Below, one piece after another: positions 45,324 to 52,406 of a DNA stretch of 64,000 bases. Both the position numbers and the translations under genes were made by a program. The notes below the pieces were generated by a model. It worked only from the letters and a program-made list of their open reading frames with translations, was not told the origin of the DNA and searched no databases. Source of the DNA: SAR116 cluster bacterium AG-447-C21 (GTDB lineage Bacteria > Pseudomonadota > Alphaproteobacteria > Thalassobaculales > Thalassobaculaceae). The stretch lies in the NCBI GenBank assembly GCA_003212315.1, contig QCQB01000007.1:1-64000 (forward strand). Direction: 5' to 3'. Each line of letters opens with the position of its first letter. The first letter of the stretch is position 1.

Positions 45324-46919
45324 TTAATTAGGAAACATCTCAAATTTCATACCTCCCGGTCGCGCGATTTGCTCTACTAGACCTAACTCCCAATTTAAAT
45401 AATCATTCATTGCTTTTTCGACCTCAACCGGGTCCTCGCGATCGTAAGCTCTCAGGTAAACGTCATTGGGGACGGATAATACATTATTTAACCCGCCTTC
45501 TAAAGTTAATCCGGCGGCCTCCCATGCATTGATACCGCCTTCTACGACTGATACACCAGCGGGAAAATCTTTCATATCAAGGGCTGCCATGACCGAAATT
45601 TTGATATCGGTGGAAATGAAAATTAGAGGGGTATTAATCTTATTCCTCTCTATATCCATGGTTAACTTACTTCTAATGCTGAACCAGGCGCCTTTTGGAT
45701 GCTTCTCTCTGCAACTGAGACTCTTATCGAGGCATACAATTGTAGCTCCAGTTTCTTGAGCGATCAGTGCTTCGTTCGGAGTCACAAAATTGATCTTTTG
45801 CTTTTCCAACCCAAAACAGGGGGCAATTCTCTGACCAGACGACATTGCCTGCCCCTCAAAACCAGTTTCTAGAACGTAGACCTCACACCAACCTAACTGC
45901 ATTAACCAACTTGCTGTCATTAAAGCGCGAACCATCAGATTATCCACTAGAACAACGCGAGCTTTTTGTGTTGCCACATATACATCCGTCGCTTGAACTA
46001 GTTGCCCTCCTGGAGCATGTCGAGAATCCGAGATATGACTTGTTTCAAACTCTTCTTCTGTTCGGACGTCTAAAATACAGAGTGTACGTTCTTCCTGCTC
46101 ATTTCTCCATTGATCCAATGTATCTTGTTTTATTTTAATTACCCCAAACCTCTGAGCTGCCGCTTCAGCTCCAGTTAAAGCCTTTTGATGCCCCGCGGAC
46201 GACACCGCAGGCGAAGGTCTATCCATTCCATGCTCTAGTTTGAAACCAGCCAAATGCCACCCCATAGTTCCATTTCTTAGAGCGACCACTTTATTTGAAA
46301 TACCTGCATTAATTAATGATTGTGCACCAATAATGCTCCGTGTCCGTCCAGCACAATTCACAACAATTGTGGTGTCTGAAGAAATACCAGTGTCCTGTAC
46401 TCGATGAACCAGTTCCGCACCAGGCATATCTATACCGGTAGGGATATTCATTACATTAAATTCTGACATCGGACGTGAATCCAAAACGATAATGTCTTCT
46501 TTATTATCCATCATGGCCTTGAGTTCTTCTGCAGAGACGGAAGGAGTGCCGTATGCATGCTCGATAAACTCTCCAAACGCTTTACTCGGAACATTAAGAC
46601 CGCTAAATATTTCGAAACCAGCTTTCCCCCACTCTTTAATTCCACCTTCGAGAACACCCAAATCTGTGTAACCGAAAAGTTTAAGTCTTTGCGCGGCTAT
46701 TCGAGCGTCTATCTCATCTTCGTCGCATATAACGATTGGTGTTGCTTTCCTGGGGACTAAGTCTGGCATTCTAATTTCCAGATGACTTAACGGGATATTC
46801 GCACATAGGAGGATATGGGCCATGCCAAAGTCGCCTTCTTCCCTGACATCAATTAAGGCTAATTCCTTGGGCCCCTCTATCATTTCATATAATTGTTTTG
46901 CAGATATATTTTTTAACAT
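45324..46919 (-). CDS. Four-domain rhodanese-like protein
   Basis: This 531-residue protein is built of four rhodanese-homology domains (about residues 1-105, 120-235, 255-365 and 375-480). The second has the full active-site loop NCAGRTRS (Cys 189). The first keeps a cysteine (Cys 65) but in an acidic loop, CDEDEID. In the third an aspartate (VLVDNL) and in the fourth a serine (IFISTD) take the cysteine position. So probably one domain transfers sulfur and the others act as scaffold or binding modules. It is convergent with modC (30 bases between stops). The acceptor is unknown. Confidence 0.87.
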   Translation of the reverse strand: MLKNISAKQLYEMIEGPKELALIDVREEGDFGMAHILLCANIPLSHLEIRMPDLVPRKATPIVICDEDEIDARIAAQRLKLFGYTDLGVLEGGIKEWGKAGFEIFSGLNVPSKAFGEFIEHAYGTPSVSAEELKAMMDNKEDIIVLDSRPMSEFNVMNIPTGIDMPGAELVHRVQDTGISSDTTIVVNCAGRTRSIIGAQSLINAGISNKVVALRNGTMGWHLAGFKLEHGMDRPSPAVSSAGHQKALTGAEAAAQRFGVIKIKQDTLDQWRNEQEERTLCILDVRTEEEFETSHISDSRHAPGGQLVQATDVYVATQKARVVLVDNLMVRALMTASWLMQLGWCEVYVLETGFEGQAMSSGQRIAPCFGLEKQKINFVTPNEALIAQETGATIVCLDKSLSCREKHPKGAWFSIRSKLTMDIERNKINTPLIFISTDIKISVMAALDMKDFPAGVSVVEGGINAWEAAGLTLEGGLNNVLSVPNDVYLRAYDREDPVEVEKAMNDYLNWELGLVEQIARPGGMKFEMFPN

Positions 46920-46986: not shown

Positions 46987-48897
46987 TTATGTTGCGAGTT
47001 CTAGAGTCTCCGATGCTTCTAACCATTCTTTTTCAACGACTTTTAATTCTCGATCAATGTGCTCTTTTTTTATAATGATTTGTTCTAAGTCACTTGTACT
47101 CTTTTCGTAGGTTTCAGCGTCTCCTAGGGTACCCAATACTTCATCTCTCTTGTTAGAAAGAATCGTTATCTGTTTTTCTAATTCTAATATTTTTTTTCTT
47201 AAATCAGAAGTAGCTTTTCTTTTATCCGCTGCGGCTTTTCGTTGCTCTTTTTTACTAGTCTTATGGTGCATTTGGCTTTGGTCATCTTTAACCTTCTTAA
47301 CTGAATTCCCTGCGCTCTCCTTCACTTTATCTTTAAGCCAAGAAGCGTAATCATCTAAATCACCATTAAAGGGGTTAACAGTGCCATCTGCAATCAACCA
47401 TAATCTATCAACTGTTAATTCCAGCAGCCGCCGATCATGACTTATAAGGATAACTGCGCCCTTATACGTGTTTAGAGCAACTACCAAAGCATCTCGAGCG
47501 TCGATATCTAAATGATTAGTCGGTTCATCTAAAATTAGAACATGTGGATTATCATGGGTGATAAGAGCAATGGTCAATCGCGCCTTCTCCCCACCTGATA
47601 AGAATTTAACTTTAGTAGTTTGTTTGTCCTGTAATAAGCCAACCCCACCAAGTCTAGCACGAACTTTATCAATAGCCGCTGAGGGCATTAATCTAGCCAT
47701 ATGTTCTGTTGCTGTGTCTTCTAACTCTAGGTCCTCCACTTGATGCTGGGCAAAGAATCCTACTTTTAATTTAGCCGCCCTATGGCTCTCGCCACTCATT
47801 TTTTCCAGTCGATTTGCTATCAATTTTGCTAACGTAGACTTCCCATTTCCATTTTGACCAAGAAACCCAATTCTATCGTCCGCATCTAACCGGAGATTAA
47901 TATTACTCAAAACTGGCAAATTATTTACATATCCCACCGAGGCTTTTTCTAATGTCACCAATGGAGGAGGAAGCAGTTCCGGCTCTGGAAATTTGAAAAC
48001 AGTGTTTCCTTCAATTAATTTGATTGTGCTGGAACCCATTTTTTCAAGCGCTTTTAATCTGCTTTGAGCCTGCCTCGCTTTACTAGCGGTATATCGAAAT
48101 CGCTCTACAAATTTTTCCATATGTTTTCTTTGAGCATCTTGTTTTCTAGACATTGCTTCTTGGAGTGCCAATTTTTCTTCGCGTACTTTTTCAAACCTAT
48201 CATAGTCACCGCTGTAATATGTTATCTTGTTCGCTTCCACATGCAGTATACCATTAACAGATCTATTCAATAATCCACGGTCGTGGCTAACGATGATTAA
48301 AGTCTTAGGGTATGCTTTTAGATGAGATTCGAGCCAAATGGTCGCCTCTAAATCTAGATGGTTAGTTGGTTCGTCAAGCAACAAAACATCTGGTTCTGCC
48401 AATAAGAGAGCCGCAATAGCTACCCGCATCCTCCAGCCCCCAGAGAAATTTGATAATGGCTCATTTTGAGCCTTATTATCAAAACCCAGCCCAGCCAGAA
48501 TAATTGCAGCCTTCGCTGGTGCCGAATATGCGCCGATATCTGCCAGCCGTATCTGTATTTCGGCAATACTATTTGGATCATCTTCAACTTCAGCCCGTTC
48601 TATAAGATCAGCTCGCTCTTTATCAGCCGATAGAACAAAGTCTAGGGGAGTTTGGTCACCTCCGGGCGCCTCCTGACTCACCGTCCCTATTCCATTTATA
48701 GCGTCTTTTATACCGTTTATAGTTATACTGCCCGCATCGGGGTGCAAATCGCCTGTCAAAAGCTTCAGTAATGTCGATTTTCCGCAACCATTCCGTCCTA
48801 TCAACCCAATTTTATGCCCTTTCGGGACTGTTGCCGATGCGTTTTCGAACAGGCTTCGACCTGCGACCCTATATGTCATGTCAGTTATTTGAATCAT
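46987..48897 (-). CDS. ABC-F family ATPase (Uup/YheS-like)
   Basis: This soluble protein has two ABC domains and no membrane part, as in ABC-F factors that act on the ribosome. Two Walker A motifs (GRNGCGKST near residue 36 and GQNGNGKST near residue 343), two signatures (FSGGWRMRVAIA and LSGGEKARLTIA) and two Walker B (LLLDEPTNHLD, LILDEPTNHLD) are visible. The ABC-F linker lies between the domains, and a Lys/Glu-rich coiled-coil tail ends the protein. The start giving MIQITDM (636 residues) fits the family; an ATG five codons earlier also exists. Which ABC-F subtype it is cannot be settled by eye. Confidence 0.93.
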   Translation of the reverse strand: MIQITDMTYRVAGRSLFENASATVPKGHKIGLIGRNGCGKSTLLKLLTGDLHPDAGSITINGIKDAINGIGTVSQEAPGGDQTPLDFVLSADKERADLIERAEVEDDPNSIAEIQIRLADIGAYSAPAKAAIILAGLGFDNKAQNEPLSNFSGGWRMRVAIAALLLAEPDVLLLDEPTNHLDLEATIWLESHLKAYPKTLIIVSHDRGLLNRSVNGILHVEANKITYYSGDYDRFEKVREEKLALQEAMSRKQDAQRKHMEKFVERFRYTASKARQAQSRLKALEKMGSSTIKLIEGNTVFKFPEPELLPPPLVTLEKASVGYVNNLPVLSNINLRLDADDRIGFLGQNGNGKSTLAKLIANRLEKMSGESHRAAKLKVGFFAQHQVEDLELEDTATEHMARLMPSAAIDKVRARLGGVGLLQDKQTTKVKFLSGGEKARLTIALITHDNPHVLILDEPTNHLDIDARDALVVALNTYKGAVILISHDRRLLELTVDRLWLIADGTVNPFNGDLDDYASWLKDKVKESAGNSVKKVKDDQSQMHHKTSKKEQRKAAADKRKATSDLRKKILELEKQITILSNKRDEVLGTLGDAETYEKSTSDLEQIIIKKEHIDRELKVVEKEWLEASETLELAT

Positions 48898-49004
48898 AAG
48901 CCCTGATAACATCCCACACTAACATTGCCAATATCCAACCAGAGTAACGAATTAATCATGTTTAATTCTTTAGATTAAGAAACCTTCATGCTAATTGTCT
49001 CCTG

Positions 49005-49895
49005 ATGCGCCCATTTTTCAAAAATAGAATTCAAGTTTCATCCATAAAAGGCATTCTTTGCATGATAGGCGGTGCTTTAGCATTAACAATAAATGATGGC
49101 ATGGCTAAATATTTAACAGAGTCCTATCCTGTTGGCCAAGTTATGGCCTTGAGAGGTACCTGTATCCTAGCCATACTTATAATATTTTTAATTTTAGCAA
49201 AAAAACGATTTAGCCTTAAAGTTTATTCTTGGCCAAATAATTTTTATCGCGCGGCGGCAATGACTGGTTCGACATTTTGCTTTATAACCGGCTTAAGCTA
49301 TCTACCAATTGCTGATGCGATAGCTATAGCGTTTGCCGCTCCATTATTAACCACTTTACTGGCTATTGTCTGGATAAAGGAGCGGGTAGGATTCCACAGG
49401 TGGATAGCCATTTTATGTGGTTTCTTAGGAGTAGTTATAATTGTGCAACCAACTGGAGACGCCTTTAAAATTGCAGTTCTCGCCCCCCTTGGTGCAGCAT
49501 TTTTTGGGGCCATCAGAGATGTCATTACAAGAAAAATTACGGGCACTGAAAGCTCTTTTGCCATCCTACTTACCAGTATGTTTCTTATAACCCTTACGGG
49601 ATTCCTTACCTACCCTTTTGGTTGGTCTGAGTTCCAATTCAAACACCTTTGGCTATTTTTATGCTCAAGTATTCTGGTTGGTTTGGCTCAATATCTAATG
49701 ATTGAAGCTTTTCGCCTTGGTGAGGTGGGTTTAATATCACCGTTTAAATATAGTAGTTTACTTTGGGCTGTTATAATTGGCTTTATAGTATGGGGCGATG
49801 TTCCCGGAAATTTAGTATTAGCTGGAGCAGCGATTTTAATTGTCAGCGGTATATATCTTTTACACGCTGAAAAACGTCTAAGAAAGGATAGTTAG
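49005..49895 (+). CDS. EamA (DMT superfamily) transporter
   Basis: This is a ten-helix drug/metabolite transporter with two EamA repeats, 296 residues. The repeat starts are ILCMIGGALALTINDGMAKY (about residues 19-38) and LAPLGAAFFGAIRDVITRKI (about residues 158-177). Members export amino acids, purines, riboflavin or other metabolites. No strong ribosome site is visible. The PLP decarboxylase gene begins seven bases after its stop, so the transporter may export that enzyme's amine product or import its substrate. Confidence 0.88.
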   Translation: MRPFFKNRIQVSSIKGILCMIGGALALTINDGMAKYLTESYPVGQVMALRGTCILAILIIFLILAKKRFSLKVYSWPNNFYRAAAMTGSTFCFITGLSYLPIADAIAIAFAAPLLTTLLAIVWIKERVGFHRWIAILCGFLGVVIIVQPTGDAFKIAVLAPLGAAFFGAIRDVITRKITGTESSFAILLTSMFLITLTGFLTYPFGWSEFQFKHLWLFLCSSILVGLAQYLMIEAFRLGEVGLISPFKYSSLLWAVIIGFIVWGDVPGNLVLAGAAILIVSGIYLLHAEKRLRKDS

Positions 49896-49902
49896 CCATC
49901 TA

Positions 49903-51126
49903 ATGGACGATGAAAGCTTTCAACCCACGCACCGTGATCTCATGGCTGGCATTCAACCACTTGTTGAAAAGTCTACAAATTCGACAGATGAGTGGTGTTT
50001 TGAAAATTTACCCGAGTTCGGTATTGGGGAAAGAAGAACAATAGAGACGTTAGCACCTATAGTTTTTAATGGCGCGGCTCATCTTGGGGCCGCCCATGCC
50101 TTTGCGCATATGGACCCTCCTACTCCCTGGATCACCTGGATCACAACGCTTTGGAACGCATCATTAAATCAGAACCTACTGCACCCTGATGTTTCTCCAA
50201 AAGCGGCAATGTTTGAAAGACACGTTATAAAATGGCTTGCTCCATTTTATAATATGTCAGGTGGCCATATGACCCCGGGGTCAACTATATCAAATTTAAC
50301 AGCATTGTGGGTAGCTCGAGATACTGCACGCATTGATAGAATAGTTACCTCAATGGATTCTCATTTATCAATTCAGAAAGCTGCAAATATTTTAGGCCTC
50401 AAATTATTGAAGCTAAAAACAAATCTAAAAGGCGAGATCGATATAAATGAAATTCCCCGGGATCTATCAAAATCTGCTTTAGTACTAACAGCCGGAACAA
50501 CCGCATCAGGAGCGATAGATGACCTGAAAATAAAAAAAGAAGCCGCATGGTTACACATCGATGCAGCTTGGGCTGGGCCGCTGCGGCTATCTGACAATTT
50601 CACTAATATTTTGGATGGTATAGAGAACGCTGACTCAGTGTCAATATCTGGACATAAATGGTTTTTTCAACCAAAGGAGTCTGGACTTATACTTTTTAAA
50701 GACGTGCTTACTGCGAATAAAACGATCAGCGCGACTAGCGGTTATTTAACAACCGAAAATGTTGGTGTTTTAGGTTCTCATGGGGCGATTGCGCTCCCAT
50801 TAATGGCTACGCTGATAGCTTGGGGAAAAACCGGATTAATTGAACGCTTGGAAAGATCCATGAAGCTGTCCGTTCAATTATGGCAAAGGCTTAATGAACA
50901 CTCGGAATTAATAGTTTTTAACAAGCCAACTACCGGTGTTATTTTATGGCGTCTGAATACGCATAATCAAACGAAGGAACTATTTTCACTCTTACCAACC
51001 GGTTCAGCATCATTTATCGAGTACAAGAATCAATTTTGGATCAGAAACGTAGCGGCTAACCCTTCGATGGATATTGAATTTCTTTGGAAAAATATTGATC
51101 TGGCTTTAATTAGGTTTAAAAAATAG
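49903..51126 (+). CDS. PLP-dependent group II decarboxylase
   Basis: This is a fold-type I decarboxylase of the aromatic-amino-acid/glutamate/diaminobutyrate group. The cofactor residues are visible: TPGSTISNLTALWVARD (phosphate pocket, about residues 125-141), the aspartate in HIDAAWAGPLRL (about residue 224) and the PLP lysine in SISGHKWFFQP (about residue 252). The length of 407 residues is shorter than most group II members (450-500). The substrate cannot be predicted: candidates include diaminobutyrate, glutamate, aspartate and aromatic acids. It is coupled to the EamA transporter upstream and convergent with the enolase-family gene (12 bases). Confidence 0.82.
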   Translation: MDDESFQPTHRDLMAGIQPLVEKSTNSTDEWCFENLPEFGIGERRTIETLAPIVFNGAAHLGAAHAFAHMDPPTPWITWITTLWNASLNQNLLHPDVSPKAAMFERHVIKWLAPFYNMSGGHMTPGSTISNLTALWVARDTARIDRIVTSMDSHLSIQKAANILGLKLLKLKTNLKGEIDINEIPRDLSKSALVLTAGTTASGAIDDLKIKKEAAWLHIDAAWAGPLRLSDNFTNILDGIENADSVSISGHKWFFQPKESGLILFKDVLTANKTISATSGYLTTENVGVLGSHGAIALPLMATLIAWGKTGLIERLERSMKLSVQLWQRLNEHSELIVFNKPTTGVILWRLNTHNQTKELFSLLPTGSASFIEYKNQFWIRNVAANPSMDIEFLWKNIDLALIRFKK

Positions 51127-51138
51127 AGAGTTGAATTA

Positions 51139-52302
51139 TTAAACAGTATATTCTTTAACGAAATCATCATTAATCGTTACACCCAGCCCAGGTCTATCAG
51201 GAATCTCTACCATACCGTCCTTCAACACAGGTCCCTGTTCCGCTAACTCAAATAATATGGGGTTAGCTCCAAGTGAATACTCTATTATATGAGCTGCGGG
51301 TGATGCAGCGCATACTTGCAAACCTGCAGCAAACATTAGGGCTCCTCCCCATAAATGCGGCGCTAGAAGAATTTGGTTCGCGCTAGCTATAGCCGCAATC
51401 CTCATAGCTTCCGTGATCCCCCCACAAATTGCTAAATCGGGTTGAAATATATCAGCAGCTCTGAGGTCCGCTAGATCACGAAATGCAAAACGGGTTGCCT
51501 CGTTTTCTCCCGTTGCTATCGGGATATCGGTATTAGCACGTATTTCTTTTAAGCCTTTCTTATCATCAGCTGTCACTGGCTCTTCAAACCAGGCAATATT
51601 TAATTCTTCCACCATCCGGCAAAATCTTTTAGCTTCAGACACGGTGTAAGTTCCGTGGGCATCACACATTAAATCAACATCCTCACCTAATGCTTCCCGC
51701 GCAGCCTTCACTCTTTCAACGGAATGCCTTAATTCGCCATCAGCTACACCGATCCTCATTTTAACCGCTTTGAATCCGCCTCTATCAATATAAGATTTTA
51801 GCTGCTGTCCTATATTATTGACATCAGCCCAACCTCCAGATGCATAAGCAGGCATAGTCTCGTGACGGCGGCCTCCTAATAATTGCCAAACTGGAGCGTT
51901 CAAAGATTGTCCAAGTAGATCCCATAGTGCCATATCTATTCCGCTAATGGCAGAAATGGTTATACCTCTGCGGCCTAAAATTGGAAAAACATGACCGCGG
52001 TCGAGTGCGTAATGTCCGCGCACCCCACTGTACAAATTTTCCCAATGCTTCGAAATCTGGCGACAGTCTTGACCTATAAGTGCTGGGCCTAATTCTTGCT
52101 CAATCATCACGCTTAAAGCTCGGTTATCACCTGCGCTAGCAACTGTAGCTTTTGCTTCTCCATGACCAATCAAACCACACTCAGTTTCTATTCTTATTAA
52201 CGTCATATCAAACGATGCTACAACACCAAAGTCTGATCGATGCTGCTGATTATCTGGGATTGGGACATGTATCCAATTAGCTTGTACTGTTTTAATTTTC
52301 AT
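51139..52302 (-). CDS. Mandelate racemase/muconate-lactonizing (enolase superfamily) enzyme
   Basis: This 387-residue enolase-superfamily enzyme abstracts a proton next to a carboxylate, typically in racemases or sugar-acid dehydratases. The N-terminal capping domain is followed by a barrel. It has AVKMRIG (the K-x-R catalytic pair), metal ligands in LMCDAHGTY (Asp), WFEEPV (Glu) and ATGENE (Glu), and LAPHLWG, whose His is the second catalytic base of the mandelate-racemase subgroup. The substrate is unknown. The ATG at 52302 is preferred over a reading eight codons longer. A 26-base inverted repeat 105 bases upstream may be its operator. Confidence 0.88.
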   Translation of the reverse strand: MKIKTVQANWIHVPIPDNQQHRSDFGVVASFDMTLIRIETECGLIGHGEAKATVASAGDNRALSVMIEQELGPALIGQDCRQISKHWENLYSGVRGHYALDRGHVFPILGRRGITISAISGIDMALWDLLGQSLNAPVWQLLGGRRHETMPAYASGGWADVNNIGQQLKSYIDRGGFKAVKMRIGVADGELRHSVERVKAAREALGEDVDLMCDAHGTYTVSEAKRFCRMVEELNIAWFEEPVTADDKKGLKEIRANTDIPIATGENEATRFAFRDLADLRAADIFQPDLAICGGITEAMRIAAIASANQILLAPHLWGGALMFAAGLQVCAASPAAHIIEYSLGANPILFELAEQGPVLKDGMVEIPDRPGLGVTINDDFVKEYTV

Positions 52303-52406
52303 AAGAAATCCAACAACCAACAACAATTGGGCTTATATTATACACCATTTTCGGAGATAATTGAACCACAGCCTGTTCGAATAATTCTACAATCCAACCC
52401 TAAATT

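Follow-up and report, generated by a model that had tools for sequence, protein, structure and literature searches.

In the window, which here means the whole stretch of 64,000 nucleotides from the SAR116 cluster bacterium AG-447-C21, a short decarboxylase gene starts directly behind a transporter gene, and the question is whether these two genes form a functional pair or are merely neighbours. The first-pass annotation, made from the letters alone, had described a short group II PLP decarboxylase 7 nt after an EamA gene and had proposed that the pair could make and export an amine, or act as an antiport-like system for acid or osmolytes. The described arrangement was confirmed by the open reading frames and by the Pfam families PF00892 and PF00282, and the locus is composed as follows.

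46987..48912, minus strand: upstream gene, divergent from the EamA gene, whose product we take to be an ABC-F ATPase (open reading frame list)
49005..49895, plus strand: EamA (DMT superfamily) permease, 296 aa, ATG start (open reading frame list, Pfam)
49896..49902, plus strand: EamA/decarboxylase junction, 7 nt from stop to start (sequence reading)
49903..51126, plus strand: group II PLP-dependent decarboxylase, 407 aa, ATG start (open reading frame list, Pfam, model, residue alignment)
51139..52326, minus strand: downstream convergent gene of the enolase superfamily (MR/MLE), sugar-acid-dehydratase-like (Pfam, NCBIfam)

The EamA protein matched PF00892 with 80.1 bits against a cut-off of 28.2, in two stretches corresponding to the two EamA repeats that known EamA/DMT permeases also have, and no listed NCBIfam subfamily scored above its cut-off for this protein. 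The decarboxylase matched PF00282 (Pyridoxal_deC) with 107.7 bits against a cut-off of 27, and one further PF00282 match was found in the genome of the window (83% complete), on contig C8. The stop of the MR/MLE gene lies 12 nt past the decarboxylase. Because the spacing of 7 nt, or the overlap of 11-23 nt seen between the two frames in genus g8 (depending on the start chosen), fits one transcript, EamA and the decarboxylase are probably co-transcribed. The promoter scan (14 promoter-like sites versus 7.2 expected) and the terminator scan (one terminator-like site, inside EamA) were uninformative, and a riboswitch upstream of EamA was sought in vain, the only Rfam match with E up to 1 between 46500 and 53500 being a tRNA. 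Beside the ABC-F gene, at 45324-46919, lies a gene for a 531-aa protein that, judged by eye, resembles a tandem of several rhodanese domains.

The decarboxylase is indeed shorter than typical relatives, as had been noted, and yet it is complete. An AlphaFold monomer model based on a 37-row alignment had a mean pLDDT of 89.5, and its top Foldseek match was the Sphaerobacter decarboxylase 4rit (TM 0.88 on the query), in a listing where the absence of a family does not exclude that family. In VIA-align, 396-402 of the 407 residues were aligned with the five best PDB entries (Z 42.1-42.5), for which 461-476 residues are resolved. Since nearly the whole chain superposes on these solved relatives, we consider the gene complete, and the modelled enzyme is compact rather than truncated, with trimmed loops and no parts missing. 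A short chain by itself is not new among group II enzymes; the MfnA-type enzymes in the same structure table, with 381-394 residues, are equally short. Comparison with genome G004 gave dN 0.057 and dS 0.308, a ratio of about 0.19, so that the gene is under purifying selection. Truncation or a pseudogene is ruled out by the complete fold together with this ratio. Its base composition does not mark the gene as foreign (GC 0.412, GC3 0.353), which speaks against a horizontal gain.

No variation was seen among the 37 aligned homologues at the PLP lysine (K252), the stacking histidine (H154), D220, the loop tyrosine (Y281) or the C-terminal arginine (R381). This alignment left out L009 because of unreadable letters and dropped L033, L034, L035 and L038 as duplicates of L004, L005, L006 and L010, and L039, whose start codon is ambiguous, was trimmed to its matched part. 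The catalytic residues of the window enzyme aligned with those of 4rit, 8zpi and 4obu, and Y281 corresponds to Y333 of the Sphaerobacter enzyme, the residue replaced in the deposited mutants 4riz and 4rj0. According to a passage of the GADL1 structure paper (PMC5947694), the tyrosine in the flexible loop of such enzymes is likely important for catalysis. With roles assigned by homology, the enzyme would convert an L-amino acid to the amine and CO2 by alpha-decarboxylation through an aldimine at K252. In this predicted mechanism, H154 would stack on PLP and D220 would pair with the pyridine nitrogen, while Y281 would protonate the intermediate and R381 would hold the alpha-carboxylate.

We compared the enzyme with the curated profiles of known decarboxylases. 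Among the NCBIfam families, the window protein scored best with L-2,4-diaminobutyrate decarboxylase (NF052646; 113.4 bits, cut-off 900), still below the cut-off, and PanP (TIGR03799; 101.6 bits against 606.1), histidine decarboxylase (NF002748; 96.6 against 305) and the tyrosine decarboxylase MfnA (TIGR03812; 82.8 against 299.4) likewise stayed below their cut-offs. Each of these four profiles matched 37/37 subfamily members, the best E value for NF052646 being 4.9e-50. The glutamate decarboxylase profile TIGR01788 did not match the window protein at E 0.001, and it weakly matched 17 of the 37 members (best E 1.8e-06). No NCBIfam equivalog recognises this subfamily, and the family libraries used return only a generic PLP decarboxylase. 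The earlier statement that the substrate is unclear holds, and the enzyme is no clear fit to any of the curated decarboxylase families tested.

The substrate pocket and the phylogeny, both of which the first-pass annotation had suggested examining, set the enzyme apart in the same way. The pocket residues H69-M70-D71-P72, N89-Q90-N91, L93-H94 and K258 are invariant in 37/37 members. In a residue table that set 6 family rows beside 35 others, the combination of D71 and K258 was confined to the family, 4rit, 8zpi and L012. In a tree of 73 rows, the 38 family rows formed one group on a long stem (support 100/100), which grouped with PanP and with 4rit, 8zpi and L012 (96/92), the join with PanP being one between long branches that the tree program flagged. 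The diaminobutyrate/lysine clade with 2qma and 5o5c was separate (100/99), and the other group II rows also stood apart. That clade is labelled through 2qma and 5o5c only, as none of its references L093-L104 passes the NF052646 cut-off, and the PanP references L113-L120 pass the TIGR03799 cut-off. Judged from alignment and tree, these enzymes are a rare and compact subfamily of their own, with a predicted polar pocket signature of D71, N91, H94 and K258. The catalytic residues are intact, and the pocket differs from those of the diaminobutyrate, lysine, PanP and aromatic enzymes in the comparison. The D71/HMD motif was also considered as a diaminobutyrate marker and was dropped, since 2qma and L093-L104 have H or N at that position. 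No paper on this subfamily was recognised in our literature search.

Among known systems, the PLP decarboxylase of Sphaerobacter thermophilus (4rit, 4riz, 4rj0, 4rlg, 4rm1) ranks first both with the family profile (203 bits) and in the structure comparison. On the one hand, it shares with the window enzyme H69-M70-D71, the N-x-N-x-L motif, K258 and the loop tyrosine. On the other hand, its chain has 486 residues, the identity is only 22-25%, and it reads QKW and NNNMLS where the window enzyme reads HKW and NQNLLH. The entry 8zpi has the same fold and the D71/K258 pair at 24-26% identity. This entry was deposited as the diaminobutyrate transaminase EctB; most of its chain can be aligned with group II decarboxylases, and the deposited name conflicts with the fold. 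PanP lies on the same side of the tree and has the NQNL motif and the HK lysine in common with the window enzyme, but it has T71, K94 and M258 (HMTSA with NQNLVK) in place of D71, H94 and K258. The L-2,4-diaminobutyrate decarboxylase 2qma and the lysine decarboxylase DfoJ (5o5c) share the fold and most catalytic residues, whereas their pockets read HLHTP with NQSMDSWDQ and HLNCP with NSSVDTWDQ, respectively, compared with HMDP and NQNxLH in the window enzyme.

If the permease were a dedicated partner of this enzyme, the two genes would be expected together, and we compared their distribution among the genomes of the order, which were grouped as genera g1-g12. EamA orthologues (E <= 1e-60) occur in 27 of the 61 genomes searched. 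The 20 EamA loci fetched, among which 7 of these 27 genomes are not represented, comprise 7 with the decarboxylase and 13 without it. In all 13 loci without the decarboxylase, EamA adjoins the ABC-F gene, which neighbours it in every fetched EamA locus that reaches that far. The pair itself occurs in 7/7 genomes of g1 and g8 that have the decarboxylase, and the pairing in these genera is not a chance arrangement. Neither gene was found in three further g1/g8 genomes that are 59-71% complete (G002, G027 and G033), where gaps or a joint loss are possible. G013 carries the decarboxylase on contig C6, and its best EamA match was located on contig C9.

Genus g7 shows the empty site. There, the gap between the EamA and MR/MLE genes is 9 nt in L078 and 17 nt in L079, the only two clean empty sites, since L080 reads as a 90-nt overlap of these genes. 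In g1 and g8, exactly this gap is occupied by the decarboxylase: its start ranges from 7 nt downstream of the EamA stop to 23 nt upstream of it, and its end from 12 nt short of the MR/MLE stop to 4 nt beyond it. Genus g7 is the sister of g1 and g8 in the EamA tree (1.000) and in the concatenated tree (0.998); the ABC-F tree by itself, however, joins g1 and g7 (0.972) and would imply a loss in g7 instead of a gain in g1 and g8. The g1 and g8 decarboxylases are monophyletic (100/100); the g10 enzymes (L010, L011) branch at another place and are encoded in other surroundings, with no adjacent EamA gene. The g8 and g7 EamA proteins are about equally distant from that of the window (62-65% and 57-62% identity), and accordingly there is no jump in EamA evolution at the arrival of the decarboxylase. 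The best reading is that the EamA gene is an older resident and that its protein has an older role of its own.

The decarboxylase is sporadic. It was found in 9/36 genomes of the order, the genome of the window included. In the class sample, 2 of the 384 remaining genomes had it, and it was missing from all 397 remaining genomes in the phylum sample and from 189 further relatives of G131; these samples overlap, and many order genomes are incomplete, so that some absences there may be gaps. A scan of GTDB contigs by peptide patterns gave 31 loci, whose titles name Alphaproteobacteria, SAR324, Sulfurospirillum, Betaproteobacteria and Streptomyces. Overall, the gene stands in about 23 different contexts, with neighbours such as PhzF (L048), a SnoaL-like protein (L053), an M24 peptidase (L055) and NIPSNAP (L038). 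One family member (404 aa, 53% identical to that of the window) is the last gene on the IMG/VR phage-type contig L123 (4899-6113, equal to L124 10001-11215), with 293 bp of contig left. It lies 155 nt after an endolysin gene, which is preceded by tape-measure, tail-assembly, tail and tail-fibre-like genes. This was the sole relative among viral contigs (1 of 12 stretches matching a pattern). The plasmid collection gave 389 records, all below 60% identity and at most 32% among the 30 matches listed, and the phage collection gave 4 records with identities near 25%, whose annotation names diaminobutyrate or histidine decarboxylases.

Some individual neighbourhoods were recorded as well. In L036 (4913-9290), the decarboxylase lies between genes for a pterin-binding enzyme and a RACo-type corrinoid activator. 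In L039 (2215-8805), genes for an aldehyde dehydrogenase, a class I/II aminotransferase, a carbon-nitrogen hydrolase, the decarboxylase and an amino-acid permease follow each other on one strand; the decarboxylase, with its ambiguous start codon, is abutting or overlapping in this run, which may hint at the substrate. In L057 (894-2996), a tail-sheath gene of phage or contractile injection type lies about 0.5 kb upstream of a Glaciecola decarboxylase.

The first-pass annotation had made its proposal depend on EamA adjacency in other genomes, and here the two genes proved to be neither always nor never adjacent. We scanned 42 loci, grouped by hand on shared flanking families into 22 contexts (the phage-type contig, a 23rd, was outside the scan). 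EamA stands beside the decarboxylase in 3/22 contexts, namely g1/g8, L042 (a tandem pair of EamA genes on the upstream side) and L054 (a single one on the downstream side). The other 19 gave no EamA gene in the neighbourhood of the decarboxylase, with flanks limited to some 1.5 kb on either side in whole-genome loci and hardly any DNA upstream in L041. Wherever the scan detected an EamA gene, it adjoined the decarboxylase or formed a tandem with an EamA gene that did. With 13-20% identity to the EamA of the window, the permeases of L042 and L054 are non-orthologous, and the two decarboxylases are far apart in the tree. Since only about 0.3 contexts would be expected by chance, as estimated from a density of 16 EamA matches per 2.67 Mb, there is some EamA enrichment, found after the fact and with a profile whose 24 seed proteins included those of L042 and L054, which favours their detection; it hints at a link. 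A gene for a fused MOSC, NAD reductase and 2Fe-2S protein was observed beside or near the decarboxylase and EamA in L042 (2235-4085) and L054 (4196-5974). No paper joining a group II decarboxylase with EamA was found in the literature search.

Considering these results together, we regard it as fairly probable that the enzyme is a horizontally acquired amino-acid decarboxylase whose gene was inserted singly behind a resident permease gene, has been kept by purifying selection and is probably co-transcribed with it. A dedicated module, in which EamA would export the amine made by the enzyme for pH or osmotic balance or for signalling, seems rather unlikely to us. The same strand, the 7-nt spacing or overlap and the constant pairing in g1 and g8 would suit such a module, as would the unrelated EamA genes flanking the decarboxylase in L042 and L054, both with the MOSC-ferredoxin-reductase gene. 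However, EamA is widespread without the decarboxylase (13/20 fetched loci), so that constant pairing does not hold, and the equal distance of the g8 and g7 permeases, the 19 contexts without EamA and the g10 decarboxylases without an adjacent EamA gene all speak against it. The original make-and-export proposal agrees with the spacing, which fits one transcript, but is not supported in so far as it takes EamA for a dedicated partner, given that the permease keeps its ABC-F neighbour in all 13 fetched loci without the decarboxylase. It is unlikely, in our estimation, that a roaming, partly phage-carried subfamily with a novel group II substrate docks repeatedly beside unrelated EamA genes, in three lineages, and so creates amine-export pairs.

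Other readings concern the chemistry of the enzyme. It could stand in for PanD as an aspartate 1-decarboxylase making beta-alanine for coenzyme A, because PanD (PF02261) was found in none of the 36 order genomes (G000-G035, among them that of the window), against 5 of 25 genomes examined from elsewhere in the class, and because PanP, the nearest labelled clade, has the NQNL motif in common. This absence is not discriminating, since the whole order sample is without PanD, and the reading was rejected as the main one; 27 order genomes lack both PanD and the decarboxylase, so that the enzyme does not track the gap, and the low PanP profile score and the replacement of T71, K94 and M258 make such a role improbable. 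A decarboxylase-fold enzyme with another chemistry, such as an aldehyde synthase, an oxidative deaminase or a lyase, would agree with the unusual pocket, the short catalytic loop and the long tree stem. Aldehyde synthases, however, are marked by a change of the loop tyrosine, and this tyrosine and the other decarboxylase residues are kept in 37/37 members, which makes a different chemistry very unlikely. We give hardly any weight to a role as a diaminobutyrate decarboxylase in the synthesis of 1,3-diaminopropane or polyamines: although NF052646 is the top NCBIfam match and finds every member, its score is far below the cut-off, the NQSMDSWDQ pocket of 2qma is missing (the window enzyme reads NQNLLHPDV there), the family lies outside the clade holding 2qma and 5o5c, and the genome, at 83% completeness, gave no diaminobutyrate aminotransferase (TIGR00709) above the cut-off. 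A small polar or acidic substrate may be tentatively guessed, as PanP, an aspartate decarboxylase, is the labelled clade closest to the family.

In summary, under the favoured reading of a horizontal gain, a single decarboxylase gene would have been inserted in the ancestor of genera g1 and g8, without a visible scar, between the EamA gene and the convergent MR/MLE gene, and it would now probably be expressed from the EamA promoter. EamA and the decarboxylase may simply be neighbours, and the comparison with the empty site separates such a neighbourhood effect from a functional operon. Additionally, an uncharacterised decarboxylase subfamily has been defined, together with its invariant pocket signature. 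If its substrate is found, it would tell which amine scattered bacteria, and one phage-type contig, may have gained from one roaming gene.
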